Below, in pieces: positions 40,478 to 61,010 of a stretch of DNA of 64,000 nucleotides (position 1 is its first letter; every line of letters begins with the position of its first letter). The notes beneath the pieces are model-generated. The model was not told the origin of the DNA. It worked only from the letters and a program-made list of their open reading frames with translations, and did no database searches. Made by a program: the position numbers and the translations under genes. The DNA is from Pseudomonadota bacterium (GTDB taxonomy: Bacteria > Pseudomonadota > Gammaproteobacteria > Xanthomonadales > Rhodanobacteraceae), in contig JAJYPJ010000001.1 in NCBI GenBank assembly GCA_021795435.1, forward strand, positions 1 to 64,000. The letters are read 5' to 3'.

Positions 40478-40565
40478 CGGCATTCCTCTCGTTGGCTGCG
40501 AACGCGGCGTCCGCAGGTGGCCGCGTTTATAGCCCAGCAGGGGCATCGAGCGCACGCTGCACTAC

Positions 40566-40579
40566 TGAATACGTATGCA
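40566..40579 (+). promoter_or_regulatory. LacI-type operator, copy 1 (MFS and GH13 divergent genes)
   Basis: TGAATACGTATGCA, with the perfect 8-bp palindromic core ATACGTAT. It lies 88 bases from the MFS start and 107 from the GH13 start. The identical 14-mer occurs at two other sugar genes in this window, and a LacI-family gene is at 52.1 kb. Confidence 0.75.
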
Positions 40580-40686
40580 TCGCCGTCGGCTTATCCGGCG
40601 CGGACGGCTACAGTTCACGGCGCGTGGCCCGTCGGCCATGCACGGACTGCAGATGCCTGGCGGGCGCCGGGCCAAACGGGGAGCGC

Positions 40687-42381
40687 ATGAACGTCGAGGT
40701 TCGGGCAGAAGGGCAATCCCGGAGTCAGGCAGCGGGGATCGGTGGTCCTGGCCGTCTTGCGCAACCATGGTGGCGCGGAGCCGTGATCTACCAGATCTAC
40801 CCGCGGAGTTTCCTCGACAGCGACGGCAACGGGGTGGGCGACCTTCCCGGCATCCTGGCCCGATTGGATTACATCGCCAGCCTGGGTGTCGACGCGATTT
40901 GGATTTCACCGTTCTTCAAGTCGCCCATGGCGGATTTTGGCTACGACATTGCCGAATATCGCGCCGTTGATCCGCTCTTCGGGACCCTGTCGGATTTCGA
41001 CCGCCTGCTCGCCGCCGCTCATGCACGCAACCTGCGGGTCATCATCGACCAGGTACTGAGCCACACGTCCATCGAGCACGCGTGGTTCCGAGCCAGTCGC
41101 GAGAGCCGCGACAACCCCAAGGCCGATTGGTACGTGTGGGCTGACCCGCTTCCCGACGGGACCCCGCCCAACAACTGGCTGTCGATTTTCGGCGGACCCG
41201 CGTGGACGTGGGAGCCGCGCCGGCAGCAGTACTACCTGCACAATTTCCTCGATGCGCAGCCGGACCTCAATTTCCACCATCCCGAAGTGCGCGCGGCGGT
41301 GCTGGACAATGTCCGCTTCTGGCTCGAGCGCGGCGTCGACGGCGTGCGCCTGGATGCAATCAACTTCTGCTTCCACGACGCGCAGCTCAGGAACAACCCT
41401 CCCAAGCCGGAGCATGCGCGCAGCGGACGCGGTTTCAGCTCCGATAATCCCTACGCCTATCAGTATCATCGGTACGACAACACGCAGCCGGAGAACATTC
41501 CGTTCCTGCAGGAGTTGCGGGCGCTGCTCGACAGCTACCCAGGTAGTGTCGCGCTCGGCGAGATCTCCTCCGAGGATTCCCTGGCGACGATGGCGGAATA
41601 CACGCAGCCCGGCCGGCTGCATATGGGCTACAGCTTCGAACTGCTGACCGAGGACCATTCCGCCGCCCACATTCGGGCGACGGTCGAAAATCTCGAGCGG
41701 GTCTTGGGGGCGGGGTGGCCCTGCTGGGCCATTTCCAACCATGATGTCGCCCGCGTGGCGACCCGCTGGGGCGGACCGGCGCCCTGCGCGGCGCAGATCG
41801 CGCAACTGACCGCGATCGCGCTCTGCCTGCGGGGGTCGGTGTGTGTTTATCAGGGCGAGGAATTGGGCTTGCCCGAGGCCGAGGTCCCCTTCGAGGCATT
41901 GCGGGATCCCTATGGCATTGCCTTCTGGCCGAATTTCAAGGGCCGCGACGGATGCCGCACGCCGATGCCGTGGGATGAGGGCGAGCATGCCGGGTTCACC
42001 AGCGGCCAGCCGTGGTTGCCCATTTCGCCGCCGCATCGCCATCTCGCCGTATCACGGCAGGAGGGCGACCCTCAGTCGCCGCTGCAGCGGTTTCGCCGCT
42101 TCGTCCATTGGCGCAAGCAGCAACCCCTGCTGCGCTGGGGATCCGTGCGGGTGCTGGACCTGCCCGAACCTTTGCTGGGGTTTGTCCGGGCGGACGGCGA
42201 AAGCGAAATGCTGGCCCTGTTCAACCTGGGTCCGATGCCCCTGCAGGTGGGTTTGCCGCCTGGCGACTGGCAGGCCTTGTCGCCCGAGGGCCTCGATGCC
42301 GGCGCCATCGAAACGGTGGGGAAGGCGGCCCGATTGCCGGCGTACGGGACGGTTGTCGCGCGCCGGCGGGTAGGGCCATGA
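40687..42381 (+). CDS. Cytoplasmic GH13 alpha-glucosidase
   Basis: A 564-residue glycoside hydrolase of family 13 (oligo-1,6-glucosidase/alpha-glucosidase group). There is no signal peptide, so it acts in the cytosol on imported malto- or isomalto-oligosaccharides or sucrose. The family regions run: WWRGAVIYQIYPRSFLDS, DQVLSHTS, the nucleophile Asp about residue 223 in GVRLDAINF, acid/base Glu about residue 291 in ALGEISSED, and the stabiliser Asp about 349 in ISNHDVAR. GGGGAG precedes ATG 40687. The stop codon TGA is itself the start of an operator that precedes the TonB receptor. Substrate linkage cannot be read from motifs alone. Confidence 0.93.
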   Translation: MNVEVRAEGQSRSQAAGIGGPGRLAQPWWRGAVIYQIYPRSFLDSDGNGVGDLPGILARLDYIASLGVDAIWISPFFKSPMADFGYDIAEYRAVDPLFGTLSDFDRLLAAAHARNLRVIIDQVLSHTSIEHAWFRASRESRDNPKADWYVWADPLPDGTPPNNWLSIFGGPAWTWEPRRQQYYLHNFLDAQPDLNFHHPEVRAAVLDNVRFWLERGVDGVRLDAINFCFHDAQLRNNPPKPEHARSGRGFSSDNPYAYQYHRYDNTQPENIPFLQELRALLDSYPGSVALGEISSEDSLATMAEYTQPGRLHMGYSFELLTEDHSAAHIRATVENLERVLGAGWPCWAISNHDVARVATRWGGPAPCAAQIAQLTAIALCLRGSVCVYQGEELGLPEAEVPFEALRDPYGIAFWPNFKGRDGCRTPMPWDEGEHAGFTSGQPWLPISPPHRHLAVSRQEGDPQSPLQRFRRFVHWRKQQPLLRWGSVRVLDLPEPLLGFVRADGESEMLALFNLGPMPLQVGLPPGDWQALSPEGLDAGAIETVGKAARLPAYGTVVARRRVGP

Positions 42382-42518: not shown

Positions 42519-45413
42519 ATGATTCAGCTCAAGCGCAACGTACTTGCCATGGCCCTGGCGTCCACGCTGGGCGTGGCTGCATTCGGCATGGCCCAAGCCG
42601 CTCCGGCACCGATGCCGGCGGCAGGCAACAACGCATCGGCTCCAACGCAAGCCGATGCCCCACAGGACACGGGATCGACCACGAGCCAACGATCGACCCG
42701 CGCCGCGAAGGAGAAGAAAGCCAAGGAACTGGGCATGGTGCAGGTGACGGGCTTCGTCAGCAGCATCACCAATTCGACGGCGATCAAGCGCTATTCGACG
42801 GAAATCGTCGAGGCGGTTTCCGCAGAGCAGATCGGCAAGTTGCCGGGCGTCAGCATCGCCGACACCCTCGGACGCCTGCCCGGACTGGCGGTGCAGACCC
42901 TGAACGGACGGCCGCAGGTTGTCACGATCCACGGGTTCGGCCCTGATTTCAGCACGGCGCTGATGAATGGCAACGAGCAGGTCAGCACCGGCAACAGCCG
43001 TGGCGTGCAATTCGACCAGTACCCGTCAAGCTGGTTCAAGAACGTGGTGGTTTACCTCACGCCCAAGGCCAGCCTCATGGGCCAGGGCCTGGCCGGCACG
43101 GTGGACCTGCAGACCTACAGGCCCCTGGACGAATCGCACCGCATCACGGCCGTCAATGCCGGCTATGTCTGGAACAGCCAGTCGACGCTGGCGCCCGGCT
43201 TGAGCAACGAGGGCTACCAGGTCAATGGCATCTATGTCGACCAGTTCCTCAACGATACGTTCGGCGTCACCCTGGGCGTTGATCTGCAGAAGAATCCGTC
43301 GCAGATCGAGCATCAGGCGCCTTGGGGCTATCCGAACGCCGGGACTGGCGGACCGCTGGTCATCGGCGGATCCAAGAACTACGGCATCTCCGACCTGTTT
43401 GGCCGCACCGGATTGCTGGGGACCCTGCAGTGGCGTCCCAACCGCAATTTCACCAGCACGTTGGACATGACGTACGACAATTTCCGCGAAAACCAGTCGG
43501 CGAAGGGCATTGAGTTTCCCTTGTACTGGGGTGGTGGGGTGCAGCTGCAGCCCGGCTATACGGTCAACAACGGCTTCGTTACGACCGGAACTTACAGCAA
43601 CGTCAAGGGCGTGATCCGCAACGACTACAACCGCAATTACGCCCGCGTCTACAACATCGACTGGAACAACCGCTACCGCATCAACGAAAACTGGTCGGCG
43701 ACCGTGGACGCCAACTACTCGCGGGCAAATCGGCGCAGTTTCCTGATGGAGTCGTACAGCGGGACGGGTTACAGCACGGCCAATGGCGCGACCGACACCA
43801 TTGGGTTCACGGAACTGGGCAGCGGCCTGCTGTACCTCAATCCATCGCTCAACTACGCCGGCAGCAATGTCGTGCTGACGGACCCGCAAGGCTGGGGAGC
43901 GGGTGCCAACCCATCGATTGTCCAGGCGGGCTTCATCAATGCACCGCGTACGACCGACTACATCGGTGACTTGCGCGCCAGCCTGAAGCGTGATTTCGAC
44001 AATGGCCCGTTCTCCAGCGTGCAGTTCGGCATTGATCGCAAGACGCGCAACAAGACCTACAACATCGACCAGTACTTCCTGACGCTGCCGAATGGCACCC
44101 AGACGTTCGCGACGAGCCCGATCGGCGCGCAGACGGCACCGATCCCGACCAGTGCGTTCGTCAATGGCGGCACCTGTGATCCGCTGGCGTTCATGGGCGT
44201 CGGCCCGCAGGTCTGCTACGACCCGCTGAGCTTGCTCAACAGTGGCGCCTACGTGGTGTTCCCGACGGCACTTTCATCGATCGGCGTGCCACCAAACTGG
44301 AGGGTACATGAGATCGATACCACCCCCTACGTGCAGTTCAATCTCGATACCCACATTGGTTCGATCCCGCTGACCGGCAATTTCGGCATGCAGGTCGCCC
44401 ATACGCTGCAGGGGTCCGAGGGCCAACGAGTGACCGCCGGCAACGCAGGCGCGGGGTCGCAGGTGCAACTGGTGCCGGTGTCGGGTAGTACCAACTACAC
44501 GCGCTACCTGCCGAGCATGAACCTGATCTTCGGGCTCACCAGCAACACCGACCTGCGTATCAGCGCAGCGCGGGTGATGGCCCGTGCCCGCATGGATCAG
44601 ATGAGCGCCAGCCTGGGCATCAACACCAACATCACGCAGTTGACCTCGACCAATCCCAACCAGGCCTACTTCAGTGCCAGCGGTGGCAATCCCAAGCTGC
44701 TGCCGACGATGGCGAACGACTACAACATCAGCCTCGAGCATTATTTCGCGGGCAACCAAGGCTATGTCTCGGCGTCGGGGTATTACATTCAGTTGCACGA
44801 CTACATCAATCCCAGTGCCGCCTACCTGGCCGATTTTTCGCCATTCATCAGCAGCTACCTGAGCCCTGCGGAACAGCAGCAGCTCGGCACGCCGTATGGC
44901 ATCGTCTCGGGACCCACCAACGATGGCTACGGCAACGTCCGCGGTGCCGTGGTCTCGGCAAGTGTGCCGCTGAAGATGCTGACGCCAGTGCTTCGCGGAT
45001 TCGGCCTGATCGCCAGCGCGAACTACACGAAGAGCTCGCTGGTCTATGCGGGCAACCCGACGCCAATCACCGTGCCGGGCTTGTCGAAGTGGGTGACGAA
45101 CCTGACGGCCTACTACCAGATCGGAGGCTTCCAGGCACGCGTCAGCCGCAACTATCGCAGCAGCTTCCTTGGCGAGGTTGCGGGCATCAGCGCGACGCGC
45201 ATCCTGCAGACGATCCAGGGTGGCAGCACCTACGATGCGCAAGTCAGCTATACCTTCGACCGGGGTCGTTTCAACGGCTTGACCCTCACGTTGCAGGGGT
45301 CGAACCTGTCGAACAAGCGGTTCATCACCTACCAGAATGGCGATCCCCGGCAAGTGCTCTATTGGGAAAGCTACGGTCGCAGTTACGAGGTACTTGCGTC
45401 CTACAAGTTCTGA
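42519..45413 (+). CDS. TonB-dependent receptor, probable maltodextrin uptake
   Basis: A 964-residue outer-membrane active transporter. A signal peptide (about residues 1-27, ending GMAQA) is followed by a low-complexity linker, a TonB-box-like segment GMVQVTGF, the plug with IADTLGRLPGLAVQTLNGRP and RGVQFDQYPSSWF, and a 22-strand barrel ending in YEVLASYKF, with the C-terminal Phe used by the BAM machine. The size and neighbours resemble MalA of Caulobacter and maltose-locus receptors of Xanthomonas (from memory). A strong GGAGGGGG site precedes the start, and an operator lies upstream. A good intrinsic terminator follows. The exact ligand is inferred from neighbouring alpha-glucan hydrolases. 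Confidence 0.92.
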   Translation: MIQLKRNVLAMALASTLGVAAFGMAQAAPAPMPAAGNNASAPTQADAPQDTGSTTSQRSTRAAKEKKAKELGMVQVTGFVSSITNSTAIKRYSTEIVEAVSAEQIGKLPGVSIADTLGRLPGLAVQTLNGRPQVVTIHGFGPDFSTALMNGNEQVSTGNSRGVQFDQYPSSWFKNVVVYLTPKASLMGQGLAGTVDLQTYRPLDESHRITAVNAGYVWNSQSTLAPGLSNEGYQVNGIYVDQFLNDTFGVTLGVDLQKNPSQIEHQAPWGYPNAGTGGPLVIGGSKNYGISDLFGRTGLLGTLQWRPNRNFTSTLDMTYDNFRENQSAKGIEFPLYWGGGVQLQPGYTVNNGFVTTGTYSNVKGVIRNDYNRNYARVYNIDWNNRYRINENWSATVDANYSRANRRSFLMESYSGTGYSTANGATDTIGFTELGSGLLYLNPSLNYAGSNVVLTDPQGWGAGANPSIVQAGFINAPRTTDYIGDLRASLKRDFDNGPFSSVQFGIDRKTRNKTYNIDQYFLTLPNGTQTFATSPIGAQTAPIPTSAFVNGGTCDPLAFMGVGPQVCYDPLSLLNSGAYVVFPTALSSIGVPPNWRVHEIDTTPYVQFNLDTHIGSIPLTGNFGMQVAHTLQGSEGQRVTAGNAGAGSQVQLVPVSGSTNYTRYLPSMNLIFGLTSNTDLRISAARVMARARMDQMSASLGINTNITQLTSTNPNQAYFSASGGNPKLLPTMANDYNISLEHYFAGNQGYVSASGYYIQLHDYINPSAAYLADFSPFISSYLSPAEQQQLGTPYGIVSGPTNDGYGNVRGAVVSASVPLKMLTPVLRGFGLIASANYTKSSLVYAGNPTPITVPGLSKWVTNLTAYYQIGGFQARVSRNYRSSFLGEVAGISATRILQTIQGGSTYDAQVSYTFDRGRFNGLTLTLQGSNLSNKRFITYQNGDPRQVLYWESYGRSYEVLASYKF

Positions 45414-46076: not shown

Positions 46077-46775
46077 CTACGCGCTTCGGCGCGGTAGCGT
46101 CTGAATGTCGATTTTCTCGAAGGCGCACAGATCGCCCAGGGCGGTTTCCATCAGCGCCCGGGCGTGGCCCGTTGCCCTTGCCAGCAGCGCGTGGATGCGT
46201 GCGTCGGCAGCGTTGCGATTCTCGCACTGCCTTGAATAGGCCTCGAAAGCACCCAGGGCCAGCACCAGATCGGCAACCTGATTCGGGCATTCGCAATCGA
46301 CTTGGCTGCGGATTTCCTGCAGGCTAACCAGTTGCACGTCGTCAAACCGCCGCGGGGGTGGCGGAGCGGCAGGTACTGCCGGAAGACCACCGTCCAACTG
46401 CCGGCGCTGGGTGATCTCTCGGACGATCAGATTGATGAGGTTTGCCCGCAGCATCCGCACGCTGATCGGCGCACGGACCACTTGCCTTCCCGGCGCCCGC
46501 AAGCTTTCGACCACGCCCCACTTGGCAAATGCGTAGACGACCAGGGTCAGCTCAGGCTGGACCACCTGCTCAAGACGCTGCAGCCGTTCGGACGGTTCGT
46601 TGCCAAGAAGCGCCAGATCAACGGCCAGTACCTGCGGCTTGTGCCGGCCCACCTGCTGTTCGAAGCTCGCGAAGTCGGCGGCACTGACGATGACCTGCAG
46701 GTGTTTGCTTTCCTCTTCGCCCGCCTGTTGCATGTACGCCGGCAGCGTCGCGTGGAGGATGCCCAGAGTGATCAT
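46077..46775 (-). CDS. Pseudo-receiver protein with Cys/His-rich C-terminal domain, unknown function
   Basis: A 232-residue cytosolic protein that I cannot name. Residues 1-115 have an alternating alpha/beta pattern like a response-regulator receiver: an Asp sits where the phosphoacceptor should be (VLAVDLALLG), but the switch Ser/Thr and the conserved Lys are replaced (YAFAK and VRAPIS). After a Pro-rich linker comes a helical module with DCECPNQVADLVLALGAFE, AYSRQCENRNAADARIHALL and a long helix; the CxCP, FExYSxxC and DAxxH arrangement looks like a metal, Fe-S or redox site. I recall similar C-terminal modules in some MerR-like regulators, with low certainty. It is divergent from halogenase 1 across 210 bases, so it may regulate the halogenases or the receptor. 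Confidence 0.6.
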   Translation of the reverse strand: MITLGILHATLPAYMQQAGEEESKHLQVIVSAADFASFEQQVGRHKPQVLAVDLALLGNEPSERLQRLEQVVQPELTLVVYAFAKWGVVESLRAPGRQVVRAPISVRMLRANLINLIVREITQRRQLDGGLPAVPAAPPPPRRFDDVQLVSLQEIRSQVDCECPNQVADLVLALGAFEAYSRQCENRNAADARIHALLARATGHARALMETALGDLCAFEKIDIQTLPRRSA

Positions 46776-46985
46776 GAAGCTGCCTGCAATCGGGTAAAGG
46801 GACGCGGATGATCCATGGTCGGTCGTCAACGCCGTGTGCAGGGTCTGGCCAGTCGGCGGCTTCGCCGGGAAGGCTGGCCCCGGTTGCCCCGGAAGCAAGG
46901 ATGAGTGGGAGGCCTTCCGCTATTCCAACGACCCCAGTCGCACCGTAGTATCGAGTCGCATCTGGCCCGCAGAAGAGGCATCGGG

Positions 46986-48485
46986 ATGGACGGGGAGCGC
47001 ATTCAACGCATCGTGGTCGTCGGCGGGGGGACCGCCGGCTGGATGACGGCTGCACTGCTCGCCAAGGCCCTTGGTCGCGCGGTTCGCATCACGCTGGTTG
47101 AATCCGAGGACATCGGGACGGTCGGGGTTGGCGAGGCCACGATTCCCCAGATCCGCCTGATCAACGATTTCCTTGGCCTGGACGAAGACACGGTGATGCG
47201 CGCCACGAAGGCGACATTCAAGCTCGGTATCCAGTTCAACGACTGGCTGAGGCCCGGCCATGCCTATTTGCATGCCTTCAGCGACATCGGCCTGCCGCAG
47301 GCCGCCGTGCCGTTTCAACATTGGTGGCTGCGCGCGCGCGCGCAAGGCGATGCGTCGGGCCTATGGGCCTACTCGCTCAACGCCCAGGCTGCCGCGGCAG
47401 GGCGCATGGCCCGCCTGGGCCAGGTGGGGGGAAGTCCGCTGACTGGCATGCGCTGGGCCTACCATTTCGATGCCGGGCTTTATGCGCAGTACCTGCGGAC
47501 CGTGGCGATCGGGCTCGGGGTGCATCGAGAGGAAGGCATCATCGTCGACGTGGACCTGCAGGGGGAGGACGGCTTCATCGCCGCCCTCAAACTGCAGAAT
47601 GGCGTGCGCGTCACCGGCGATCTGTTCATTGACTGCTCCGGTTTCCGGGCGCTACTCATCGAAGGCGCGCTGCATGCGGGCTTCGACGACTGGCGGCGAT
47701 GGCTTCCATGTGACCGCGCGCTGGCCGTCCCGAGTGCAAGGGTTGGCGAGGCGCTTCCCTACACGCAGGCCAGCGCTCGTGCCGCCGGTTGGCAGTGGCG
47801 CATTCCCCTGCAGCATCGTACGGGCAATGGTCATGTCTACTGCAGTGAGTTCATGGGCGATGACGAGGCACTGGCCGTGCTCCGGGCGAACCTCGATGGG
47901 GATCCGCTGGGTGAACCGCGGCCATTCCGGTTTACCACGGGCATGCGTCGCGAGGTCTGGGTCAAGAATTGCGTTGCGCTCGGGCTTGCCGCCGGATTCA
48001 TGGAGCCGCTGGAGTCGACCAGCATCCATCTAGTGCAATCGGGAGTCGACAGGCTGCTCAAGTTGTTCCCCGACGCACGATTCGAACCCTCGGTTCGCGC
48101 AGCGTTCAATCGGCAGACGCGCTTCGAGTACGAGCGGATCCGCGACTTCCTGGTCCTGCACTACACGACGACCGAACGACGCGACACGCCGTTTTGGCGC
48201 CACTGCGCAGCAATCGAAAGGCCCGGCGGATTGCAGGACAAGATGGACTTGTTCCGCGCGTGCGGCCAGATCTTTCGTGATGGCGAAGAACTGTTTACCG
48301 AGGTTGGCTGGCTGCAGGTCCTCGTAGGGCAGGGGGTTCAACCGCAGACCTGGCATCCGCTGGCGGATGCGCTGGATTCGGGCCGACTGGACGAGTTCAT
48401 GGTTAGCCTCCGCACCATCATCCAGCGGGCGGTCGCGGCCATGCCGACCCATGGGCGGTTCATCGCCGAGCACTGCGCGGCCTGA
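46986..48485 (+). CDS. Flavin-dependent tryptophan-halogenase-like enzyme 1
   Basis: A 499-residue FADH2-dependent halogenase homologue. The FAD loop [16 protein letters not shown] is at 10-25. Lys79 in ATKATFKLGIQF matches the catalytic Lys79 of PrnA/RebH that carries the hypohalous acid. The family WxWxIP motif is WQWRIP at 269-274, and [13 protein letters not shown] at 338-350 holds the conserved Glu. All diagnostic residues are intact, so activity is plausible. Homologues beside TonB receptors in Xanthomonas and Caulobacter-group bacteria have unknown natural substrates, and several prefer bromide and indole (from literature memory). It faces halogenase 2 tail to tail, seven bases apart. 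A GAGG site precedes ATG 46986. Confidence 0.92.
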   Translation: MDGERIQRIVVVGGGTAGWMTAALLAKALGRAVRITLVESEDIGTVGVGEATIPQIRLINDFLGLDEDTVMRATKATFKLGIQFNDWLRPGHAYLHAFSDIGLPQAAVPFQHWWLRARAQGDASGLWAYSLNAQAAAAGRMARLGQVGGSPLTGMRWAYHFDAGLYAQYLRTVAIGLGVHREEGIIVDVDLQGEDGFIAALKLQNGVRVTGDLFIDCSGFRALLIEGALHAGFDDWRRWLPCDRALAVPSARVGEALPYTQASARAAGWQWRIPLQHRTGNGHVYCSEFMGDDEALAVLRANLDGDPLGEPRPFRFTTGMRREVWVKNCVALGLAAGFMEPLESTSIHLVQSGVDRLLKLFPDARFEPSVRAAFNRQTRFEYERIRDFLVLHYTTTERRDTPFWRHCAAIERPGGLQDKMDLFRACGQIFRDGEELFTEVGWLQVLVGQGVQPQTWHPLADALDSGRLDEFMVSLRTIIQRAVAAMPTHGRFIAEHCAA

Positions 48486-48492
48486 TGCACAC

Positions 48493-50034
48493 TCAGGATT
48501 CGGCGCGGCAGTGTCGGTCGAGATAGGCATCGTGCGCCGGCATCGCGGCCGTCGCCTGCTGCATGACGGTGCGCAGCTCCGCAAGAAAGGTCGGGGCCTC
48601 GACTCCGCGAAGGTCCGCCAGGGAGTCATGGCGCTGCGGTTCGATTCCCTGGCCCGCTAGCACCGCCAGCCAGTTGGCGTTCTGGAACAATTCCAGCGGT
48701 TCGGCCACGAGTCGTCCCGCGGCACGGAATTGGGCAATGCGATAGGCCAGGGTCTCGGGGATCGGCATGGCGCGGGTATGCCGCCACAGCGGCGCATCAT
48801 CGCGCTCGACGGCGTGGTAGTGGAGGATCAGGAAATCGCGGATCCGCTCGTACTCGGCGCTGGTGATGCGGTTGTACTCCTGCGCCGCCAGCGGCTCGAA
48901 ATCGCGATCGGGGAACAATGCGAGCAACCTCGTGATTGCGGTCTGGATCAGATGGATGCTCGTGGACTCCAGCGGCTCCAAAAACCCTGCGGACAATCCG
49001 ATGGCGACACAGTTCCGGTGCCAGGAACGGCGCCGTCGCCCGGCAGCGAAACGCAGCGGCCGCGGTTCGCCCAGGGCTTCGCCATCGAGATGCCCCAAAA
49101 GCAGCGCTGTGGCCTCGTCATCGCCCATGAATTCACTGCAGTAGACATGGCCATTACCGGTGCGGTGCTGCAGGGGGATGCGCCACTGCCAGCCCGCCGC
49201 CCGTGCCGTTGAGCGGGTATAGGGAACCCTGGGGTGCGCGCTGGCGCAGCCAATGGCGACGGCGCGGTCGCAGGGCAGCCAGTGGCGCCAATCGTCGTAG
49301 CCTGCATGCAGCGCATCTTCGATGAGCAACGCGCGGAAGCCGGAGCAGTCGACGAACAGGTCGCCGGCGAGGCGTGCGCCATCCTCCAGTCGCACGGCGG
49401 CGATGAACCCGTCCTCACCCCGCAACTCGACCTCGACGATGCGGCCTTCGCGACGCATCACGCCGCGATGTTCCGCGAAGCGGCGCAGGTACTGCGCATA
49501 CCGCATGGCATCGAAATGGTAGGCGTAGTCGAAAGTGCTCTGCACCCGTTGGGGATCACCCAGCGGCCGATCGAACCGGGCCGCCTGGGCCATGACCCAC
49601 GCCATGGCGTAGTCGTGGATCGGGCGCCTGTCGCCCCTTGCGCGTTCACGCAGCCAGTATTGATGCAGTGGCACCGCGTCGAACTCGACGCCAATCTGGC
49701 CAAAGGGATGGAAATAGCGGTGTCCAATGCGGGTCCAGTCGACGAATTCGATGCCCAGCTTGAACGTGCCCCCTGTCGATCGGAGGAAGTCGTTCTCATC
49801 GATGCCGAGCATGCGATTGAATGCCTTGATGGGCGGGATGGTGGCCTCGCCCACGCCGATGCTGCCGATCTCTGCCGACTCGACCAGTGTGATCGGACAG
49901 CGACCGGCCGTGGCATGGCACAGCGCTGCGGCGGTCATCCACCCGGCCGTGCCACCGCCAACGATGACGATTCCGCGAAGTGCCCGTGCATGGGCGTCGT
50001 CGAGATTCATTACGTCCGGCATCCTGTGGTGCAT
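48493..50034 (-). CDS. Flavin-dependent tryptophan-halogenase-like enzyme 2
   Basis: A 513-residue paralogue of the enzyme on the opposite strand. It has [15 protein letters not shown] at 22-36, the catalytic-type Lys92 in [29 protein letters not shown] (identical to the same stretch of enzyme 1), and [13 protein letters not shown]. The two proteins are clearly alike across their whole length but differ in the substrate-cap regions (for example [15 protein letters not shown] against YLHAFSDIGLPQAAV), so substrates may differ. Three nearby ATGs (50034, 50022, 50010) are possible starts; the first has AGGA close upstream. No operator of the sugar regulon lies upstream, so control is likely separate. 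Confidence 0.9.
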
Positions 50035-50257
50035 GCATCCTGCCTGCCAAGCCCGGCGATGGTGTTCCCGTCGCGGCCGTGAGTCCTCTGCACGTGCGCC
50101 TGGAACCCTGTCCATCCCGGTTCTGCCCGCGCAAATGCGTGTTGCGAATCCCGAGGGATGATCCAAGCCACCAAGACAGTTTCGATAGCGGTCATGATGC
50201 GGCGTCGTTGGGCAGGCTCGGCAAGCGTAACTGCAAATGCCACCGGGTTCGGCCGGG

Positions 50258-51301
50258 TCAGGGGACGGTGCTGCCGGCAGGCGGCCAGATCAGCATGGCA
50301 TCACCGTAGGAGAAGAAGCGGTAGCGCTGTTCCACCGCGTGCCGGTAGGCGGCCAGGATGCGTTCGCGGCCGGCGAGTGCGGAAACCAGCATCAGCAGCG
50401 TCGACTCGGGCAGGTGAAAATTGGTGAGAAGCCCGTCAATCTGGCTAAAGCGGTAGCCGGGCAAAATGAAGATGCCGGTCTCGCCCTCGAAGGGGGCCAG
50501 CCGGCCATGCGGGGCTGCGGACTCCAGCGCGCGCACCACGGTCGTGCCAATGGCAATCACGCGACCACCTTCGGCGCGCGTGCGCATGATCTGTTCGACC
50601 AGAGGGGCTCCGACGTTGATCCACTCCTGGTGCATGCGATGCTGCTCGAGGTGCTCGACGCGCACCGGCTGGAAGGTTCCGGCGCCCACATGCAGCGTCA
50701 GATGGCCGAACTGGACACCGCGCGCGCGTAGGGCCTGCAGTAGGGGTTCATCGAAATGGAGGCCTGCGGTGGGGGCGGCGACGGCGCCTGCATGGCGCGC
50801 GAAGACGGTCTGGTAACGCTCGGCATCGGCTGCACCAGGGGCACGCGTGATATAGGGAGGCAAGGGCATCTGGCCCAACCGCGCGAGTAGTTGTGGCAAT
50901 GGCTCCTGAGATTCGAACCGCAACCGAAAAAATTCCCCGTCGCGACCGAGAACTTGCACGGTACTGCCATCGGCGAGCTGCAATGTGGCGCCTGCGGAGG
51001 GCTTTTTGCTGACGCCCAGTTGCGCCAGGACATCCTGTCCGCCGATGAGGCGCTCGATCAGGATCTCGGCAGCGCCGCCGGTGGACTTTCGGGCATGCAA
51101 TCGTGCCGGCATGACGCGCGTGTCGTTGAAGACCAGCAGGTCCCCTGACCGCACTTCGTCCGGGAGGGTGCGCACCCATGCATCGGTCAGCCGCTCCTGC
51201 GCAGCGTCCAGAACCAGCATGCGGCTGGCACTCCGCTCCGGCAGGGGGGCCTGTGCGATCAACTCACTGGGGAGATCGAAGTGGAAGTCGGACTTCTTCA
51301 T
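50258..51301 (-). CDS. queA: S-adenosylmethionine:tRNA ribosyltransferase-isomerase
   Basis: Adds the cyclopentene-diol precursor in queuosine synthesis in tRNA, using the ribosyl part of SAM. The 347-residue protein begins [20 protein letters not shown] and contains [45 protein letters not shown], and [21 protein letters not shown]-type sequence (seen here as [16 protein letters not shown]), all diagnostic. The usual tgt partner is not in the window. The start overlaps the FMN-reductase stop by four bases. Confidence 0.97.
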
Positions 51302-51855
51302 GCGATCGGCACGTTGGGCGGTTCAGCGGACTTGGACGGGAGGCAGGCAAGGGCCAAAGCGACAAACATCCGTTCGACCGCCGCGCGCACGTCGGTTGCC
51401 CGGGACAGGTCATGGGGATCGAGTCCCGAGCCAAGCAAGGCGACCGAGATGGATGCATCCCCCACAATCCGGGCGGACATGGTTCGCAGCGTTTCAGCCA
51501 GTGCCTCCTGGGCATGATGCGCGCGTGGCGATGTGTTGACCAAGGCGATCGGCTTGGCGATGAAGCCCGCGTCGCCAACCAGCCAATCGAGCGCATTCTT
51601 CATCACGCCGCTGATGCCGTGCGCGTACTCCGGGCTGGCAATGACCATGGCGTCGGTCCGCGAAACGGCGAGACGGAACCGGCGGACTTCATCGGGTGGC
51701 GTCGCCTCGAGATCGGCGTTGAACAAGGGCAATCGCCCCGGTGCAGGGTCCACGACCAGCGTCACCCCGGCGGGTGCGTGCGCTGCAGCCAACCGGAGAA
51801 AAGCGCTGTTGAGCGAAGCGGCACGAAGGCTTCCGGACAGTCCGAGGATCTTCAT
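51298..51855 (-). CDS. NAD(P)H-dependent FMN reductase family protein
   Basis: A 185-residue flavodoxin-like reductase (PF03358 type). The FMN-phosphate loop is [16 protein letters not shown] at 6-21, and the isoalloxazine-side segment is [20 protein letters not shown]. Members reduce FMN, quinones, azo dyes or chromate. It is coupled to queA by a four-base overlap. In principle a flavin reductase could supply reduced flavin to the neighbouring halogenases, but this is only a hypothesis; the enzyme type supplies FMNH2, whereas halogenases use FADH2. Start ATG 51855 fits the family; the upstream extension is basic and not homologous. Confidence 0.88.
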
Positions 51856-52088
51856 CACGATGACGGGGTGGCGGGAGCCGCGCCTTCTTCGGCGGCCCTT
51901 GAGCCTGGTGGCGCGCGGCGAGGGGCCCCGCAGTTTCGCGCGATGGCCAGCCGGATGTCCAACGGCGGTGGCTGCCGGGTCGCGGGGGCGGCAGGCCCGG
52001 GGCCAGTCTTCCATGTTGCACTACAAGCTGTATCGAGCCGGCCGGCGTCCTAGACTCGGGCGGGATCCGTGCGGACAGGCGCAGTGCC

Positions 52089-53198
52089 ATGCCGATCAAG
52101 GGCAAACCCAATTCGCTGGATATCGCGCACCTGGCGGGCGTGTCGCAAGCCACGGTATCTCGCGCGTTGCGGGGCCACCCGGCTGTCAATCGCGCCACCC
52201 GCGAGCGCGTGCTTGCGGTCGCGCGTCAACTGAATTACACGGTGGACAAGAATGCTTCGAACCTTCGGACGCAGCAGTCGGGAACCCTCGCGTTGCTGCT
52301 GTTTGAAGATCCGACCGTTGACGATTCCAACATCAACCCGTTTTTCCATTCGATGCTGGGATCGATCACGCGTGTCTGCGCCCAACGTGGCTATGACCTG
52401 CTGATTTCGTTCCAGCAGCTCTCGCGTGACTGGCATGCCGACTACGAGGATTGCCACAAGGCCGATGGGCTGATCCTTCTGGGGTACGGCGATTACCGCG
52501 AATACCGGAGTCGACTGGAGGCCCTGGTCGCGCAGGGCACCCATTTCGTCCGCTGGGGCGCAGTGCTGGAGGACCAGCCGGGCATATCCATCGGTGGCGA
52601 CAATCATGCCGGCGGCGCCGCCGCGGCCCGCCATCTGCTGGCGCTGGGGCGTCGCCGGATCGGGTTCCTGGGCCACGCCTCCCAGGGCGCGCCGGAATTC
52701 CTCGAGCGGTACCAAGGCTATGCGGCGGCATTGCGTGAAGCCGGGCTGGTGGCCGATCCGTTGCTGCAGGCGGATGCCATATCCACCGAGCAGGCCGGGC
52801 GCGAAGCGGCCGAACTGGTCCTCGAGCGTGGTGCGCGGGTGGATGCATTGGTCTGTGCCAGCGACTTGATCGCGATCGGCGCACTGCGCGCGCTCCAGGC
52901 TCGAGGGCTGCGCGTTCCTGACGACGTGGCCCTGACAGGCTACGACGACATCCCCATGGCGCAGTTCACCACGCCGGCGCTGACCAGCGTCCAGCAAGAC
53001 ACGAAGCGTGCGGGCGAACTGCTGGTGGACACCCTGCTGAAGATGGTCCAAGGCGAAGCGATGGCGCCGATCAAGCTTGCGCCGCAATTGGTGGTGCGAC
53101 AGTCCTGCGGAGTGTCGCAGGCGCCGGCACGCTCGCCGGCCACGGTGACCACGCTCCCTGCCCATGGCCGTCGGCCCTCACGTGGCGCGCGCCATTGA
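52089..53198 (+). CDS. LacI-family transcriptional repressor of the sugar locus
   Basis: A 369-residue regulator. The N-terminal helix-turn-helix and hinge are LDIAHLAGVSQATVSRALRG (residues 9-28) and TRERVLAVARQLNY, then NASNLRTQQSGTLALLL; the rest is the periplasmic-binding-protein-like effector domain with GFLGHASQG, VCASDLIAIGALRAL, GYDDIPMAQFTTPALTSV. LacI proteins usually bind palindromes with a central CG, and the 14-mer with core ATACGTAT found three times at the sugar genes fits. The ligand is probably a maltodextrin or glucose derivative (inference). Its 3' end overlaps that of the convergent SLC45-like carrier by 21 bases. Confidence 0.93.
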   Translation: MPIKGKPNSLDIAHLAGVSQATVSRALRGHPAVNRATRERVLAVARQLNYTVDKNASNLRTQQSGTLALLLFEDPTVDDSNINPFFHSMLGSITRVCAQRGYDLLISFQQLSRDWHADYEDCHKADGLILLGYGDYREYRSRLEALVAQGTHFVRWGAVLEDQPGISIGGDNHAGGAAAARHLLALGRRRIGFLGHASQGAPEFLERYQGYAAALREAGLVADPLLQADAISTEQAGREAAELVLERGARVDALVCASDLIAIGALRALQARGLRVPDDVALTGYDDIPMAQFTTPALTSVQQDTKRAGELLVDTLLKMVQGEAMAPIKLAPQLVVRQSCGVSQAPARSPATVTTLPAHGRRPSRGARH

Positions 53199-54707
53199 CG
53201 ATCGGGCCGCAGACGGCTCGCGCACGCGAAGTACGGCCAGGCCCGCGGCGAACAGGCTGAGTGCGCCCAGGAGCAGTGCGCCCATCGCGTGGCCATCGAA
53301 AAGGTACCTCACCAGCAATCCGAGGATGCTGGCGGCTAGCAGTTGGGGGATGACAATGAAGAAATTGAAAATGCCCATGTAAACGCCCATCTTCCGGGCC
53401 GGCAGGTGGTCGGAGAGCAGGGCATACGGAAGCGAGAGGATCGACGCCCAGGCAATGCCGATGCCGATCATGGGTACGACCAGCCAGTGCGGGTTACTGA
53501 TCATGGAGATCGACAGGAACCCCGCCGCCCCCAGCCAGAGGTTCAGCAGGTGGGCCATGCGCAGCCCCAGCCGCCTGGCCATCGGGGCCAGCGCGATCGC
53601 CGCCAGCGCGGCGACCGCGTTGTAGACGGCAAACAGGATGCCTACCCAGTTGGCCCCGGCATTGAAGGCGGCGGACTGCGGATTGGTTGCGTGGAACTGG
53701 GCGGCAGTGACCGCAGGCGTGGTGTAGATCCACATGGCAAACAGCGCGAACCATGAGAAAAACTGCACCCACGCGAGACGTCGCATGGCCGCGGGCATGC
53801 CGTGCAGGTCTCGCATGATTTGTGCCCATGCGGGTGTCTTGCTGGCGCGCTGCCCCCCGGAGTAGGCCGCCAGCGCGGCGGAGAGCAATCCGAAGGCAAG
53901 CAGGCCGCCCGCCAGCAGATAGACCTCGGGCTTGAGCCGCAGCAGCCAGACCCCCATCGCCGAGCCGACGCCGGAGAGAGACCAGACCCACGCGCTTCTC
54001 CGGAGCCGGGCTGGTGCGACCACCGGCTCTCCATCCGTCGTGGATGGGGTCGTTGATTCATCGGCAAAGGCGTCCAATTGCTGTGGGGGGTACTCCTGTG
54101 TCGAGCCCACGGTCCAGACCATGGAAAGCAACAGGACCACGGCGCCCACATAGAAAGCGTAGCGGACCGTTTCCGGCAGCCGGCCCGGCGCGGCGGTATT
54201 GTCGAATCCGATTTGCGTGAGCAGCCATGGCAACGCCGACGCGATGACGGCCCCGATACCGATGAAGAACGTCTGCATCGCATAACCGGCCGGTCGCTGG
54301 CGTTCGGGCAATTGGTCGGCGACAAAGGCGCGGAAGGGCTCCATCGAGACGTTGAACGAGGCATCCATGATCCAGAGGGTGACCGCCGCCATCCATAGCG
54401 CCGAGGCATGTGGCATACCGACCAATGCTCCTGCGCTGAGCAATGCGCCAGCGAGAAAATAGGGTCGCCGCCGGCCCAGTCGCGTCCACGTACGGTCGGA
54501 ATAGTGGCCGATGATGGGCTGGACCAGCAGGCCGGTCAGCGGCGCAGCGATCCAGAGGATCGGAATCTGTTCGACATTCGATCCCAGGGTCTCGAAGATT
54601 CGGCTGACATTGGCGTTTTGCAGGGCAAAGCCGAACTGGATGCCAAGGAAACCGAAGCACATGTTCCAGATTTGCCAGAATCCCAGCTCGGGTTTGCGGC
54701 TCATCAT
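53178..54707 (-). CDS. SLC45/GPH-like MFS disaccharide transporter
   Basis: A 509-residue inner-membrane carrier of the sucrose/maltose-type MFS group. The N-terminus FWQIWNMCFGFLGIQFGFALQ (split in the first helix) and LTGLLVQPIIGHYSD, then RLGRRRPYF, are characteristic of SLC45/Suc1-like proteins. There is a long central loop (about residues 205-235) rich in Pro/Thr/Ser. It is the fourth gene of the operon that begins at 61.0 kb, starting with a four-base overlap, and would import the products of the three exported hydrolases. The 3' end overlaps the LacI gene on the other strand by 21 bases. Confidence 0.9.
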   Translation of the reverse strand: MMSRKPELGFWQIWNMCFGFLGIQFGFALQNANVSRIFETLGSNVEQIPILWIAAPLTGLLVQPIIGHYSDRTWTRLGRRRPYFLAGALLSAGALVGMPHASALWMAAVTLWIMDASFNVSMEPFRAFVADQLPERQRPAGYAMQTFFIGIGAVIASALPWLLTQIGFDNTAAPGRLPETVRYAFYVGAVVLLLSMVWTVGSTQEYPPQQLDAFADESTTPSTTDGEPVVAPARLRRSAWVWSLSGVGSAMGVWLLRLKPEVYLLAGGLLAFGLLSAALAAYSGGQRASKTPAWAQIMRDLHGMPAAMRRLAWVQFFSWFALFAMWIYTTPAVTAAQFHATNPQSAAFNAGANWVGILFAVYNAVAALAAIALAPMARRLGLRMAHLLNLWLGAAGFLSISMISNPHWLVVPMIGIGIAWASILSLPYALLSDHLPARKMGVYMGIFNFFIVIPQLLAASILGLLVRYLFDGHAMGALLLGALSLFAAGLAVLRVREPSAARSSMARAT

Positions 54708-56938
54708 GGCGCTCCATGGGTTGCCGTCGGGCGTGGCGCCGGCGGCGTGGGCGAGATGAGCAGCGCGTCGATACGGGCCTCATTGAGCGGCCCGCTTGCG
54801 CCACCGGCCCCACCCGTGAACAAGGCGGCCTGGCTCAGGTAACTCATGTTGAAGCCCGGAAGCAGGCGGAATTCGCAGCGCGCGCCGGCCGCGGCGTGGA
54901 ATCGGACCCGGCTTGAACGTTGCAGGCCGTGCCCCTGGGGCATGATCAACGGGCCTGTCCGGGCCGGCGGGGCGCCGCACTGGATGGCAATACGTCGAAC
55001 CGCCGCCGTGATACCCGTGTTGATGGGTCCGTTTGCATTATCGAATTCGAGTCGAAGGACGTATTCGCCGGTACGGGGTGCTGTCCACGTGCGCGGCCAT
55101 GCGCCACCGATGCGATCCGTGGGGCCCATGCATGCCGGTCGGCTCGGCAGCGACTGGACGCCATGGGCGACCGTGGTCAGGTTCACGCAGTGGCGCAGGC
55201 CATCGATTGGCAACCTCCATATCCGCGCGACCTTGTCCGACTGGATGCGTCCGTCGACCCAGAGCGTGGCCGGGACGGTGCTGCGAACGATCCACGCATG
55301 GCCTTCCTGCACAACGTGCGCCGGTGCCGGCGTTGCCGGGGCGAATGAGGGCAACGGTGCATGCAAGGGTGTCGAGATGGCCGTGATCGCCTTGAGCTGG
55401 ATGCGCACGGACTGGCCTTCGCGCGGCGCGCCGGCATCGGCAACGAGCAGGTTGCCCGCCATCTTCGCCGGACGAACCAGCGTGATCACTTGCCCTGGCA
55501 TCCGCAGAGAAATCGACGGGTGGTCACCGAAGAGCATCGGCACGAGCGAGACGGGAATCTCGGGGCGTATGCGGCCATTGTTCTCGAGACCGAACACGCC
55601 CTCGACCACCATGTTCAGGTAGCCCGCCACGGACCAGAGCTGGCGGCGGGAATCCACCACTGGGCCTCCCAGTTTGCCGGGCAGCTTCGTGTCGAGCTGC
55701 GGGAGCGCGAAGTTTTCCATGTTCGAACCGCTCAGGGCCGCGGCGCGGATCAGCGAGCGCAGTTCGTGGGCAATGCGCGCCGGATTCTGGATCCTCCGGG
55801 CTGCACGCAGCGCATAGGCGCTGACGAAGGGCCACATGGCCCGGTTGTGATAGACGGGTTGACTGGCGCGTTCGGGCCAGATCACCGGCGTGCCCGCCGG
55901 CCAGCTTGGATAGTCATTCAGGGCGAGGCGTGCGCGCTTGCCATCGGCCACGCCGCTGACAATGGCCAGCGAAGTACCCAGCAGGTCGTAGGCATCCACG
56001 GGCAATGGCGGATTGCCGCCGCCCAGGTAGCTGCGGTAGAGGCCTCGCCCAGGGTTCCAGAACCAGCGGTTGATGGCCGCCTTCAAGGCATCGGCCTGGC
56101 GGGCATAGTGCGTCGCGATGGCGGTATGGCCGCGACGCTGCGCCAGCTGCACGGCCAGTCGCAGGGCTTCGTAATGCAGGACATTCGTCGACAGCGCGAA
56201 GGAACTGGCGATGAAGCGGACGTTGCGCGCGGTCCAGCCCGGATACGTCTGCTCGCGCCAGTCCATGAAAGAGGTCTCGCCGCGGTAGAGGCCGATGTCC
56301 GGATCAAAGGCGTATGTGCGGTCTTGGGCCAGCGTGTCGCGCAATGCCTTCCAGGTCAGTTCGGCGAATGCAGGGGCCTGCAGCAGATGCCGAGCCCCGA
56401 GGAACCACACCACGCGGTCGGTGCTGATGGGCCAGCTGCCGCCAGAACCGGTGTCTTGCAGCACGTAGAGGCCTTGAGGGGCGCGATTGTCGCGGACGCC
56501 CGAGACCTTGAACGCCAGCGAGTTCCGCGCACGATCCGGATCGAAGCGCCAGAGCGCAAGATCCGTGGAGTAGGACAAGTCCCGGGTCCATACAAACGGC
56601 CATTGCTTTCCGGCGACAAAGCAGTGGCATGGCACGGGCTTGCCGTGGTTCCAAGCGCCATCGGTGATCTCGGAGACGGCGTCCCGCCGGAGGTCCTGCT
56701 GGGCCATCGCGAACAGGCCGTCAAACAACACGCTCGCCGTTTCGACGCGCCAGGGGGCCGGCGGGATCGCGCGTGTCCCCCGACCTTCGGACAGCAAGAA
56801 TCCCGCACCATCGCGACGCATGCTGGCTGAACGCCCCTGCCAGTCCAGCCTCCCATGCCAGTCGCCCGCAACCCGCGCGTGCGCAAGCAGCGGTGCAACG
56901 GCGAGCGCCAGCAGTGCCGAGCTCCCGCGCCGCATCAC
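54704..56938 (-). CDS. Exported six-hairpin (GH63/GH37-like) glycoside hydrolase
   Basis: A 744-residue exported protein. A signal peptide (MMRRGSSALLALAVAPLLAHA) precedes an (alpha/alpha)6 toroid of the glucosidase/trehalase type, with QWPFVWTRDLSYSTDLAL, ETSFMDWREQTYPGW, SLGGGNPP-like loops, WPERASQPVYHNRAMWPF and LWSVAGYLNMVVEGVFG. The C-terminal 200 residues, after about residue 530, look like one or two beta-sandwich modules rich in Pro, Thr and Cys, possibly binding domains. Annotators often call such proteins six-hairpin glycosidase-like. The likely substrate is an alpha-glucan derivative, judged by the operon. Both ends overlap neighbours by four bases. Confidence 0.8.
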   Translation of the reverse strand: MMRRGSSALLALAVAPLLAHARVAGDWHGRLDWQGRSASMRRDGAGFLLSEGRGTRAIPPAPWRVETASVLFDGLFAMAQQDLRRDAVSEITDGAWNHGKPVPCHCFVAGKQWPFVWTRDLSYSTDLALWRFDPDRARNSLAFKVSGVRDNRAPQGLYVLQDTGSGGSWPISTDRVVWFLGARHLLQAPAFAELTWKALRDTLAQDRTYAFDPDIGLYRGETSFMDWREQTYPGWTARNVRFIASSFALSTNVLHYEALRLAVQLAQRRGHTAIATHYARQADALKAAINRWFWNPGRGLYRSYLGGGNPPLPVDAYDLLGTSLAIVSGVADGKRARLALNDYPSWPAGTPVIWPERASQPVYHNRAMWPFVSAYALRAARRIQNPARIAHELRSLIRAAALSGSNMENFALPQLDTKLPGKLGGPVVDSRRQLWSVAGYLNMVVEGVFGLENNGRIRPEIPVSLVPMLFGDHPSISLRMPGQVITLVRPAKMAGNLLVADAGAPREGQSVRIQLKAITAISTPLHAPLPSFAPATPAPAHVVQEGHAWIVRSTVPATLWVDGRIQSDKVARIWRLPIDGLRHCVNLTTVAHGVQSLPSRPACMGPTDRIGGAWPRTWTAPRTGEYVLRLEFDNANGPINTGITAAVRRIAIQCGAPPARTGPLIMPQGHGLQRSSRVRFHAAAGARCEFRLLPGFNMSYLSQAALFTGGAGGASGPLNEARIDALLISPTPPAPRPTATHGAP

Positions 56939-59352: not shown

Positions 59353-61010
59353 CAGCGGTGCTCCGATGGAAGGGCCGCAGGTTGCGCGATGCCTTCGAGG
59401 ACGACACTGCCATAGGCAGGCAGACGGAGGACGCCTCCCGTCACGTCGGTGCCGGATTCGCTCGCGCGAAGCAGTGTGCCGTAGGCAAATCCTTCAACGG
59501 GGCGAAGCATCAGTTGCTGTTCGCGCCCGGAGAGATTGTGCACGACGAGGACGCGTCCCTGCGCATCCTGCAGCCGCCATGCCGCCAGGGCGGCGTTGCC
59601 GCTGGCGAATTCGCCAGCCACGCCATCGCGAAGTGGTGCAATGTCCATGCGCCAGCGGATCAGTTCCCTGTAGCGTTCAAGCAGCGAGTGTGGATTGTTT
59701 TCCTCGGCCTGCACGGAGACGCCCCGATTGGCTGGAATGTTCGTCGGCTCCCATGACGGCTCCCCGGGCGAATGAGGATTGACGTCCCAGCGCATGGGTT
59801 CGCGGATCTGCGGATCAGGCTTGGTCCCGCGCATGCCGATTTCCTCGCCATAGTAGACGAATGGATGGCCCGGTAGCGTCAGCAGGAGCGCGGCGGCAAG
59901 CTTCATCTCGCGCATGTTGCCGGCCAGGTCGCTCATGATCCGGTTCTCGTCATGGTTGGTCAGGAAGGGCGCGTCCATCACGTAATGGCCGGCCGCCGCC
60001 CTGTATTGCTGCTGGATGCTGACGAGCTCCGCGCCAATACCGGCATCGCTGCCAAGCCGGACGCTCCGGATCAACGTGCGCGCCAGGGGGAAATCGAACA
60101 CGGCATTCAGTGGCTTGACGAATGGCGCCATGTAACGCGTGCTCGTGCCCGCGACCTCGCCGACGAGATAGGCGTCCTGATCGACCGGGCGGATGCCGTC
60201 GCGGAACTGTTGCCACCATGCTGCGCTGCGATCCATCACCGCGAGGTCGTCGTCGTCGCGATCGAGCTTGTCATAGATGTGCTTGGCTGCATCCAGGCGG
60301 AATCCGTCGGCGCCCTTGCGCAGCCAGAACCGGCCGATGCCGATCATCGCCGCTCGCACCGACGGATTGTCGTAATCGAGATCCGGCATTTGCACGTCGA
60401 AAATCCCCATGTAGTGCTGCGTGCCCCATGGCGTTTCGATCCGGTGCCAGATGGGCGCGCCCCAAGGGCTGACTTCGGTCAGGTTGGTGGCCGGCGTAGC
60501 CCAGTAGTACCAGTGGCGGTAGGGGCTGTGGGGATCCCGTGATGCCTCGAACCAGGGATTTTCGGCGCTGGTGTGGTTTGCGACCAGGTCGAGGATCACC
60601 TTGATGTGGTCCGCGTGGGCTGCCCGCACCAATCGCTCGAAGTCGGCCATCGTGCCGTACTGCGGGTTGATGGCGCGATAGTTGGTCACGTCGTAGCCAT
60701 GGTAGCTGGGCGACGCGAAGATGGGCATCAGCCAAAGGCCGCTGACGCCAAGGGCTTTCAGGTAGGGGAGCTTCCGGGTAATTCCGTTGAGGTCGCCGAT
60801 CCCGTCGCCGTTGCTGTCGTAGAAGGAGCGCACGAACACCTCGTAGAAGACGCCGGATGGCGCAGGGGCACCGAGGCCAGACCGGTCGATCGGTGCTGCA
60901 GCCGCTGGGTGGTTCGTGCGCTCCGCGGCGCGAACGGCGGGCAAGCCCGTCGCCAGGAGGGACAGCGTCAGTCCCAGCAGGATCGCGTGTGCTCGACTCG
61001 GCATGACCAT
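59352..61010 (-). CDS. Exported GH13 alpha-amylase family enzyme
   Basis: A 552-residue family 13 hydrolase and the first gene of the four-gene operon. A signal peptide (AHAILLGLTLSLLATGLPAV, then RA) sends it to the periplasm. Conserved regions are SGVFYEVFVRSFYDSNGDG, DLVANHTS, nucleophile Asp near 238 in GFRLDAAKH, Glu near 283 in YLVGEVAG, and Asp near 353 in FLTNHDENR; FVYYGEEIGM is also typical. It probably cuts maltodextrins brought in by the TonB receptor. An operator lies 75 bases upstream. ATG 61004 is a possible alternative start. Confidence 0.93.
   Translation of the reverse strand: MVMPSRAHAILLGLTLSLLATGLPAVRAAERTNHPAAAAPIDRSGLGAPAPSGVFYEVFVRSFYDSNGDGIGDLNGITRKLPYLKALGVSGLWLMPIFASPSYHGYDVTNYRAINPQYGTMADFERLVRAAHADHIKVILDLVANHTSAENPWFEASRDPHSPYRHWYYWATPATNLTEVSPWGAPIWHRIETPWGTQHYMGIFDVQMPDLDYDNPSVRAAMIGIGRFWLRKGADGFRLDAAKHIYDKLDRDDDDLAVMDRSAAWWQQFRDGIRPVDQDAYLVGEVAGTSTRYMAPFVKPLNAVFDFPLARTLIRSVRLGSDAGIGAELVSIQQQYRAAAGHYVMDAPFLTNHDENRIMSDLAGNMREMKLAAALLLTLPGHPFVYYGEEIGMRGTKPDPQIREPMRWDVNPHSPGEPSWEPTNIPANRGVSVQAEENNPHSLLERYRELIRWRMDIAPLRDGVAGEFASGNAALAAWRLQDAQGRVLVVHNLSGREQQLMLRPVEGFAYGTLLRASESGTDVTGGVLRLPAYGSVVLEGIAQPAALPSEHR

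Follow-up and report, generated by a model that had tools for sequence, protein, structure and literature searches.

The window considered here, 64,000 nucleotides of the Rhodanobacteraceae assembly GCA_021795435.1 (contig JAJYPJ010000001.1, positions 1 to 64,000, forward strand), includes two genes of the flavin-dependent halogenase family, designated FDH1 and FDH2, lying tail-to-tail in positions 46986-50034 with seven bases between their stop codons. A preliminary description of the sequence had placed such a paralogous pair here, both with a lysine of the PrnA type and the motifs WQWRIP and PLESTSIH, and had pointed to an identical stretch of more than twenty residues; all of this was borne out. 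Both genes are intact open reading frames (ORFs), nearly the whole PF04820 model is matched in each (FDH1 623 bits, FDH2 644.5 bits; Pfam cut-off 21), and the proteins are 57% identical over 491 aligned residues, the longest identical run being 32 residues. By alignment, with BrvH numbering as in the main text of PMC5945002, the catalytic lysine is K79 in FDH1 and K92 in FDH2, and the catalytic glutamate E343 and E356; GxGxxG is also kept in both. Across 149 aligned sequences of the family, no substitution occurs at the Lys, the Glu, or the two Trp and the Ile positions of WxWxIP. The ratio of nonsynonymous to synonymous substitution rates between the window and its sister genome (G008; G numbers denote genomes and L numbers loci) is 0.07 for FDH1 and 0.12 for FDH2; values for FDH2 of L053/L057 (0.24) and L047/L068 (0.40) were set aside, these ORFs having long upstream extensions. 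A third halogenase of the same genome (G000) is found elsewhere (contig C63, locus L030, 5593-7107). From the motifs, phylogeny, gene linkage and conversion traces computed here, it is fairly probable that FDH1 and FDH2 are catalytically competent open-site halogenases of two old subfamilies, convergent in a TonB-receptor alpha-glucan locus, with the flavin adenine dinucleotide (FAD)/halide “box” re-homogenised by gene conversion.

The same three solved structures head the sequence matches of both proteins: 9luq, 6y1w (Xcc4156), and 6frl (BrvH), to which FDH1 is 49-51% and FDH2 48-49% identical. In an alignment spanning the loop regions of BrvH, both substrate-loop regions have roughly the short length seen in BrvH and Xcc4156; the first equals that of BrvH and exceeds that of Xcc4156. 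A lid loop closing over tryptophan, characteristic of PrnA, RebH, and PyrH, was not seen: the second loop is as short as in BrvH and Xcc4156 (RebH was not in the alignment, and its loop length is from the main text of PMC7336383). FDH1 and FDH2 resemble the open-site BrvH/Xcc4156 group, not the free-tryptophan halogenases, and as enzymes are members of an already known subgroup. For BrvH and Xcc4156, the main texts of PMC5945002 and PMC7336383 report open active sites that accept indoles and not free tryptophan, and propose a peptide as substrate; the latter describes the native substrates of both as still unknown.

Comparisons were made over 96 loci including the window, drawn from the best 80 of 221 FDH1-like loci and 20 stretches from the genus (one from this genome), less five that repeat other contigs (L036-L039, L043). 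One identical FDH1 (L048), halogenase ORFs of fewer than 430 residues and, from the conversion analyses on, L096_6923f were also dropped. Gene calls were our own and missed some genes: no halogenase was called in L065 or L073, and the calls for L050 and L110 lack the halogenase by which the locus was retrieved. Of the 96 loci, 21 have two halogenase genes that are immediate convergent neighbors. These 21 are gammaproteobacterial or, as with L063, L084, and L077 from Aquisalinus flavus, alphaproteobacterial; L078 (3.4 kb between the genes) and L086 (5.8 kb) are left out of this count, which would be 23 with them. The stop codons are no more than 33 nt apart or overlap in 16 of these pairs, and are separated by 193-1055 nt in the other five. 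With this one counted, the genus is represented by 13 genomes; each has an FDH1 match at E<=0.001, those in G007 and G012 being short or weak only. In a class-wide sample, excluded from the linkage counts, 29 of 75 genomes match at this threshold, mostly weakly, with more than 300 bits in four (G000, G063, G054, and G085). A metagenome-assembled contig labeled Edaphobacter aggregans (L040), perhaps mis-binned, has an FDH1 71% identical to that of the window, with a receptor and a glycoside hydrolase (GH) gene adjoining.

A tree built from 150 halogenases places FDH1 in a group of 33 rows (support 90) and FDH2 in a separate one of 24 rows (support 99). The FDH1 group is nested in a larger one (support 99) to which 9luq, Xcc4156, and this genome's third halogenase also belong. 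When only conversion-poor columns are used, for 46 rows, a branch with 99/95 support splits FDH1 from FDH2, and the FDH2 group is firm (100/99). By these trees the two appear to be old subfamilies. Of the 24 FDH2 rows, 21 sit in convergent pairs; of the remaining three, L028 ends 1.5 kb and L034 0.6 kb short of the edge of its contig.

Superimposed on this separation are local signs of sequence exchange. Within genomes, the longest identical DNA run between FDH1 and FDH2 reaches 95 nt (L053), 76 nt (L066), 56 nt (L016), and 50 nt (L018) in four of 19 pairs; across genomes (n=340) the median is 18 nt, the 99th percentile 42 nt, and the maximum 52 nt. Permutation of the pairings over 18 genomes gave p=5e-5 for the best 30-codon window, a result that holds after overall identity is subtracted. 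A local quartet test is the better control. For the window and L018, codons 176-350 (a range within the box, chosen by us for describing the tracts) have 21 concerted and 21 orthologous sites, and the codons outside it 22 and 185. The longest concerted run, of 11 sites with nine at third positions, spans codons 266-304 (p=0.0002) and covers most of the identical stretch at residues 264-295. Concerted runs reach p<0.01 in 13 of 17 quartets, which share genomes, were chosen by us and, where distant, are open to saturation. Traces of conversion are mainly in the FAD/halide box, at codons ~176-350, and the identical stretch itself seems best explained by local gene conversion, not as the trace of a duplication.

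The “cap” regions were said in the preliminary description to differ, and with the BrvH domain limits (PMC5945002, main text) window FDH1 and FDH2 are 64% identical in the box vs. 36% in the pyramid. Twelve positions cleanly separate the two subfamilies; eight of these are in the pyramid, which makes up 28% of the protein (p=0.0064) and is faster-evolving anyway. The pair would thus combine one partly shared catalytic core with two substrate-facing parts, and because the pyramids differ, FDH1 and FDH2 probably act on different substrates or positions. It is the conserved two-subfamily pair, with conversion centered on the box, that is new here.

Table 1. Features of the halogenase pair and its surroundings (window coordinates; strand as + or -)
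Feature	Coordinates	Strand	Remarks
Sugar porter, major facilitator superfamily (MFS), TIGR00879	39089..40555	-
GH13 alpha-amylase-family enzyme	40492..42381	+	ORF start probably further in
TonB-dependent receptor, TIGR01782 (TonB-Xanth-Caul)	42519..45413	+	964 aa
ORF, no Pfam or NCBIfam match	46077..46898	-	273 aa; between receptor and FDH1
FDH1, flavin-dependent halogenase	46986..48485	+	499 aa; ATG 46986, stop ends 48485; K79, E343, WQWRIP, PLESTSIH
DNA encoding 32 identical residues, FDH1 264-295	47775..47870	+	Overlaps concerted-site run, codons 266-304
Spacer separating FDH1 and FDH2 stop codons	48486..48492	.	Seven bases; no terminator-like site detected
FDH2, flavin-dependent halogenase	48493..50034	-	513 aa; ATG 50034, stop ends 48493; K92, E356, WQWRIP, PLESTSIH
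DNA encoding the same 32 residues, FDH2 277-308	49111..49206	-
queA	50258..51301	-	Sole PF02547 match in assembly (~90% complete)
FMN_red-family flavoprotein, possible flavin reductase	51298..52014	-	Upstream of queA and FDH2, same strand
LacI-family regulator	52089..53198	+
MFS transporter	53178..54707	-
Glycosidase-like protein	54704..56938	-	Weak matches only, all under Pfam cut-offs
GH31 glycosidase	56935..59352	-
GH13 alpha-amylase with SusG-type C-terminal domain	59352..61010	-

The gene families surrounding the pair (Table 1) point to an alpha-glucan locus, in which the elements of TonB-receptor glycan utilization (receptor, glycoside hydrolases, sugar transporter, and regulator) are found together. 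A TonB receptor and sugar genes had already been recognized here from the sequence, and sugar-related genes do lie on both sides. It had also been remarked that there is no typical natural-product cluster; no polyketide synthase (PKS), nonribosomal peptide synthetase (NRPS), or other natural-product core gene was found among the Pfam-scanned window genes, several shorter ORFs being outside the scan, and most of 20 additional scanned genes of the window have housekeeping roles. The 273-aa ORF occurs in four of the 13 genomes of the genus (this one, G008, G005, and G007), and in the neighborhood maps it appears between receptor and FDH1 only in the window and in sister genome G008. The queA and FMN_red genes separate FDH2 from the LacI gene, and several relatives have GH genes after FDH2; this suggests that the locus has been rearranged. 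Matching unclustered genes are found in the FMN_red position only in the sister locus L016, and as a dedicated flavin reductase it is a lead only. No terminator was found between the two stop codons, the single terminator-like site in 46800-50400 (minus strand, 50338-50318) being within chance, nor was a sigma-70-like promoter found in this interval. Candidate LacI operators were rejected, the frequent dyads being either GC-rich ones upstream of halogenases or sites before a single gene class.

The association with receptors extends well beyond the window. Among 133 halogenase genes for which the upstream sequence is 2.5 kb or longer, 67 are immediately preceded, on their own strand, by a TonB-receptor-type gene when intervening halogenase, SapC, and Cupin_8 genes are skipped; FDH2 genes, which face away, stay in the denominator. 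Receptors were identified by BLAST clustering, and only representative members were checked against Pfam. The gap from receptor to halogenase is 35-280 nt in 58 of 73 cases, with a median of 117 nt over all 73. When PF04820 was separately used to search 41 family genomes, 27 gave matches at E<=1e-80, and a receptor lies directly upstream in 16 of the 29 best-match loci (L183-L211), the one in L198 being a weak match further off; this draw was confined to best matches, flanks of 1.5 kb, and our own reference proteins. An OMP_b-brl_4 type receptor occurs together with a PF10091 “Glycoamylase” gene in 12 of these 29. The third halogenase of this genome adjoins genes that cluster with the OMP_b-brl_4 type receptor, LacI, and PF10091 “Glycoamylase”.

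The accompanying enzymes vary by locus: GH13/GH31/GH97, PF10091, GH16, GH3, or GH30. Because these vary while the receptor and halogenase stay, the halogenase substrate would seem linked to uptake itself rather than to any one glycan. SapC, Cupin_8, and DUF6445 genes are present in 11, 11, and 5 of the 96 loci. Two gene orders were seen among them: receptor, SapC, Cupin_8, halogenase (L088, L091, L097, L098, and L112), and receptor, distant halogenase, SapC, Cupin_8, halogenase (L107, L109, L113, and L114). Several of these nine also carry genes of the GH16 and GH3 clusters, a recurring kit. In Erythrobacter and relatives (L087, L094, L095, L101, L104, and L105), a tandem of four halogenase-cluster genes, with a short second member of ~345-380 aa, lies close to oxidoreductases and a receptor gene. 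TonB receptors are placed together with “tryptophan halogenase”, SapC, and JmjC-type cupins in SEED-type annotations, so annotators may already be aware of the co-occurrence. Among the papers listed, with most subscription literature outside the search, no title or abstract opening dealt with halogenases linked to TonB, SapC, polysaccharide utilization, glycoside hydrolases, starch, laminarin, or gene conversion. In the available portion of PMC11337851, halogenase transcripts and TonB receptors are handled separately; “TonB” is absent from the main text of PMC8269204, as are TonB, receptor, glycosid-, and gene conversion from those of PMC5945002 and PMC7336383.

If the two enzymes are active as predicted, FADH2 and oxygen would yield a flavin hydroperoxide, and halide would be oxidized to hypohalous acid (HOX) in the FAD/halide box, following the chemistry in the main texts of PMC5945002 and PMC7336383. 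HOX would then travel to K79 or K92 and attack an electron-rich aromatic ring at the open site, bromide being the likely preferred halide. FDH1 and FDH2 would probably differ in substrate or in position of attack, and might act in succession. FADH2 could be supplied by a general reductase, or perhaps by the product of the FMN_red gene that precedes queA. At the DNA level, closely spaced inverted copies would permit local gene conversion, re-homogenizing parts of the box and leaving the identical stretch.

At first sight the tail-to-tail layout, the 57% identity, and the 32 identical residues suggest an inverted duplication, which the preliminary description had left open: FDH2 would be a flipped copy of FDH1, recent or lineage-specific, and the stretch its remnant. 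As a recent event this is very improbable. Both subfamily groups are common to other species, and the window copies are not each other's nearest relatives; the convergent layout recurs in many species, including the alphaproteobacterial L063, L077, and L084; and the outer regions follow orthologues, not paralogues, as in the counts for the window and L018 (22 concerted, 185 orthologous). A very old inverted duplication predating the subfamily split could conceivably underlie the arrangement. Acquisition from distant sources, named in the preliminary description as what would undo its account, fits insofar as the copies are two old subfamilies, but 21 of 24 FDH2 rows are still convergent with another halogenase. 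The stretch might instead reflect purifying selection on a catalytic motif alone, without conversion, since it is kept family-wide (mean FDH1-FDH2 identity 0.83 over 29 of its residues, n=792). This too is improbable: nine of the 11 concerted sites in the window/L018 run are at third positions, the longest identical DNA runs (95, 76, and 56 nt) are all within genomes, above the cross-genome maximum of 52 nt, and the variable residues of the stretch agree within the genome in the window, L018, and L063.

As to what is halogenated, the candidates, in order, are an aromatic small molecule made on glucan and then a protein or peptide of the uptake system. That the halogenases tailor a secreted aromatic compound made when glucan is plentiful (an indole derivative, pigment, or defense compound) is possible but doubtful: BrvH does form 3-bromoindole from indole in vitro, at an activity low enough that its authors suggest indole may not be the native substrate (PMC5945002, main text), and PKS, NRPS, or similar genes are lacking among the scanned window genes. 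Modification of an uptake-system protein or peptide prior to export, for example the TonB receptor, seems unlikely, for all that a receptor is directly upstream of half the countable halogenase genes (67/133) at mostly short gaps (58/73), that the association spans two receptor types and several sets of glucan enzymes, and that the active sites are open and a peptide has been proposed for BrvH and Xcc4156 (PMC5945002 and PMC7336383, main texts). No Trp or Tyr column is invariant in the 56 halogenase-linked receptors and absent from 31 others, and two unlike receptor types speak against one fixed target residue. Window receptor residues Y168, W382, Y413, W594, and Y952 are present in 66-75% of halogenase-linked receptors vs. 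0-3% of the others, a difference confounded by receptor subfamily; the 31 also included three with a flanking halogenase (L125, L126, and L141, the last distant). In a broader version, also unlikely, one or both enzymes would act in the cytosol to halogenate an aromatic residue, or aromatic tag, on the receptor or a different uptake protein, serving generally as an accessory to glucan uptake, with SapC, Cupin_8, and DUF6445 as further parts of the kit in other loci.

Several points weigh against the reading preferred here, of two old subfamilies exchanging sequence in the box of a locus-bound convergent pair. The groups were named after the first tree was seen, and the 33-row FDH1 group is supported at 90 only. 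Forcing FDH1 and FDH2 into one clade costs 36.9 log units, with a marginal p=0.042 in the approximately unbiased test. In the 46-row tree, the placement of the L077 and L084 FDH1 genes with the remaining FDH1 genes is not firm, and the partner of FDH1 in L063 lies in a different part of the tree; pairs may thus have changed partners on occasion. Overall identity is higher within than across genomes, and a common base composition may account for part of the pairing signal. Four quartets do not reach p<0.01: L018/L017 (0.03), L066/L047 (0.08), L059/L103 (0.60), and L052/L060 (1.0). The longest identical DNA run in the window itself is 21 nt, within the cross-genome range, so exchange there would not be recent and is read from the quartet test. 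The loci were retrieved by likeness to FDH1, so common neighborhoods partly reflect common descent. At least eight FDH1 relatives (L020, L041, L042, L045, L049, L051, L054, and L056; L042 is from Oleiagrimonas soli) have no second copy in ~9-10 kb downstream, so FDH2 can be missing. Finally, a search for a shared LacI-type operator as perfect 6-bp dyads, in 234 upstream vs. 447 coding stretches, gave no motif common to the locus genes.

The recurrent site beside TonB receptors and varied glucan hydrolases is a concrete place to seek the native substrate of brominating halogenases of the BrvH/Xcc4156 type, and the pair illustrates how inverted paralogues lying close together can evolve, holding parts of a catalytic core in common through gene conversion and yet keeping substrate-facing halves that differ. 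TonB-receptor carbohydrate utilization loci are a class known from Xanthomonas and Caulobacter; the TonB-Xanth-Caul receptor, GH13/GH31 enzymes, LacI regulator, and MFS sugar transporters are here too, but this locus carries halogenases. Among the solved relatives of FDH1 and FDH2, 5uao, which we take to be MibH (the structure listing labels it tryptophane-5-halogenase), is one of the more distant (4e-56 and 2e-58). No precursor-peptide gene was noticed near the pair, short ORFs not having been searched for. The peptide substrate of MibH underlies the published peptide proposal for the open-site enzymes (PMC5945002 and PMC7336383, main texts). PrnA, RebH, and tryptophan 5-halogenases are among the solved-structure matches of both proteins, which share with the PrnA/RebH/PyrH type the catalytic Lys and Glu, GxGxxG, and WxWxIP (as in the main text of PMC5945002), but FDH1 and FDH2 are without the long tryptophan-closing loop, and no biosynthetic core gene was seen near them. 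The closest likeness is to BrvH and Xcc4156, with 48-50% identity, common motifs, and substrate loops of about equal shortness. A second halogenase gene, 42.7% identical, adjoins that of BrvH as well (PMC5945002, main text); the difference is that here two subfamilies are kept convergent, with apparent sequence exchange in the box.

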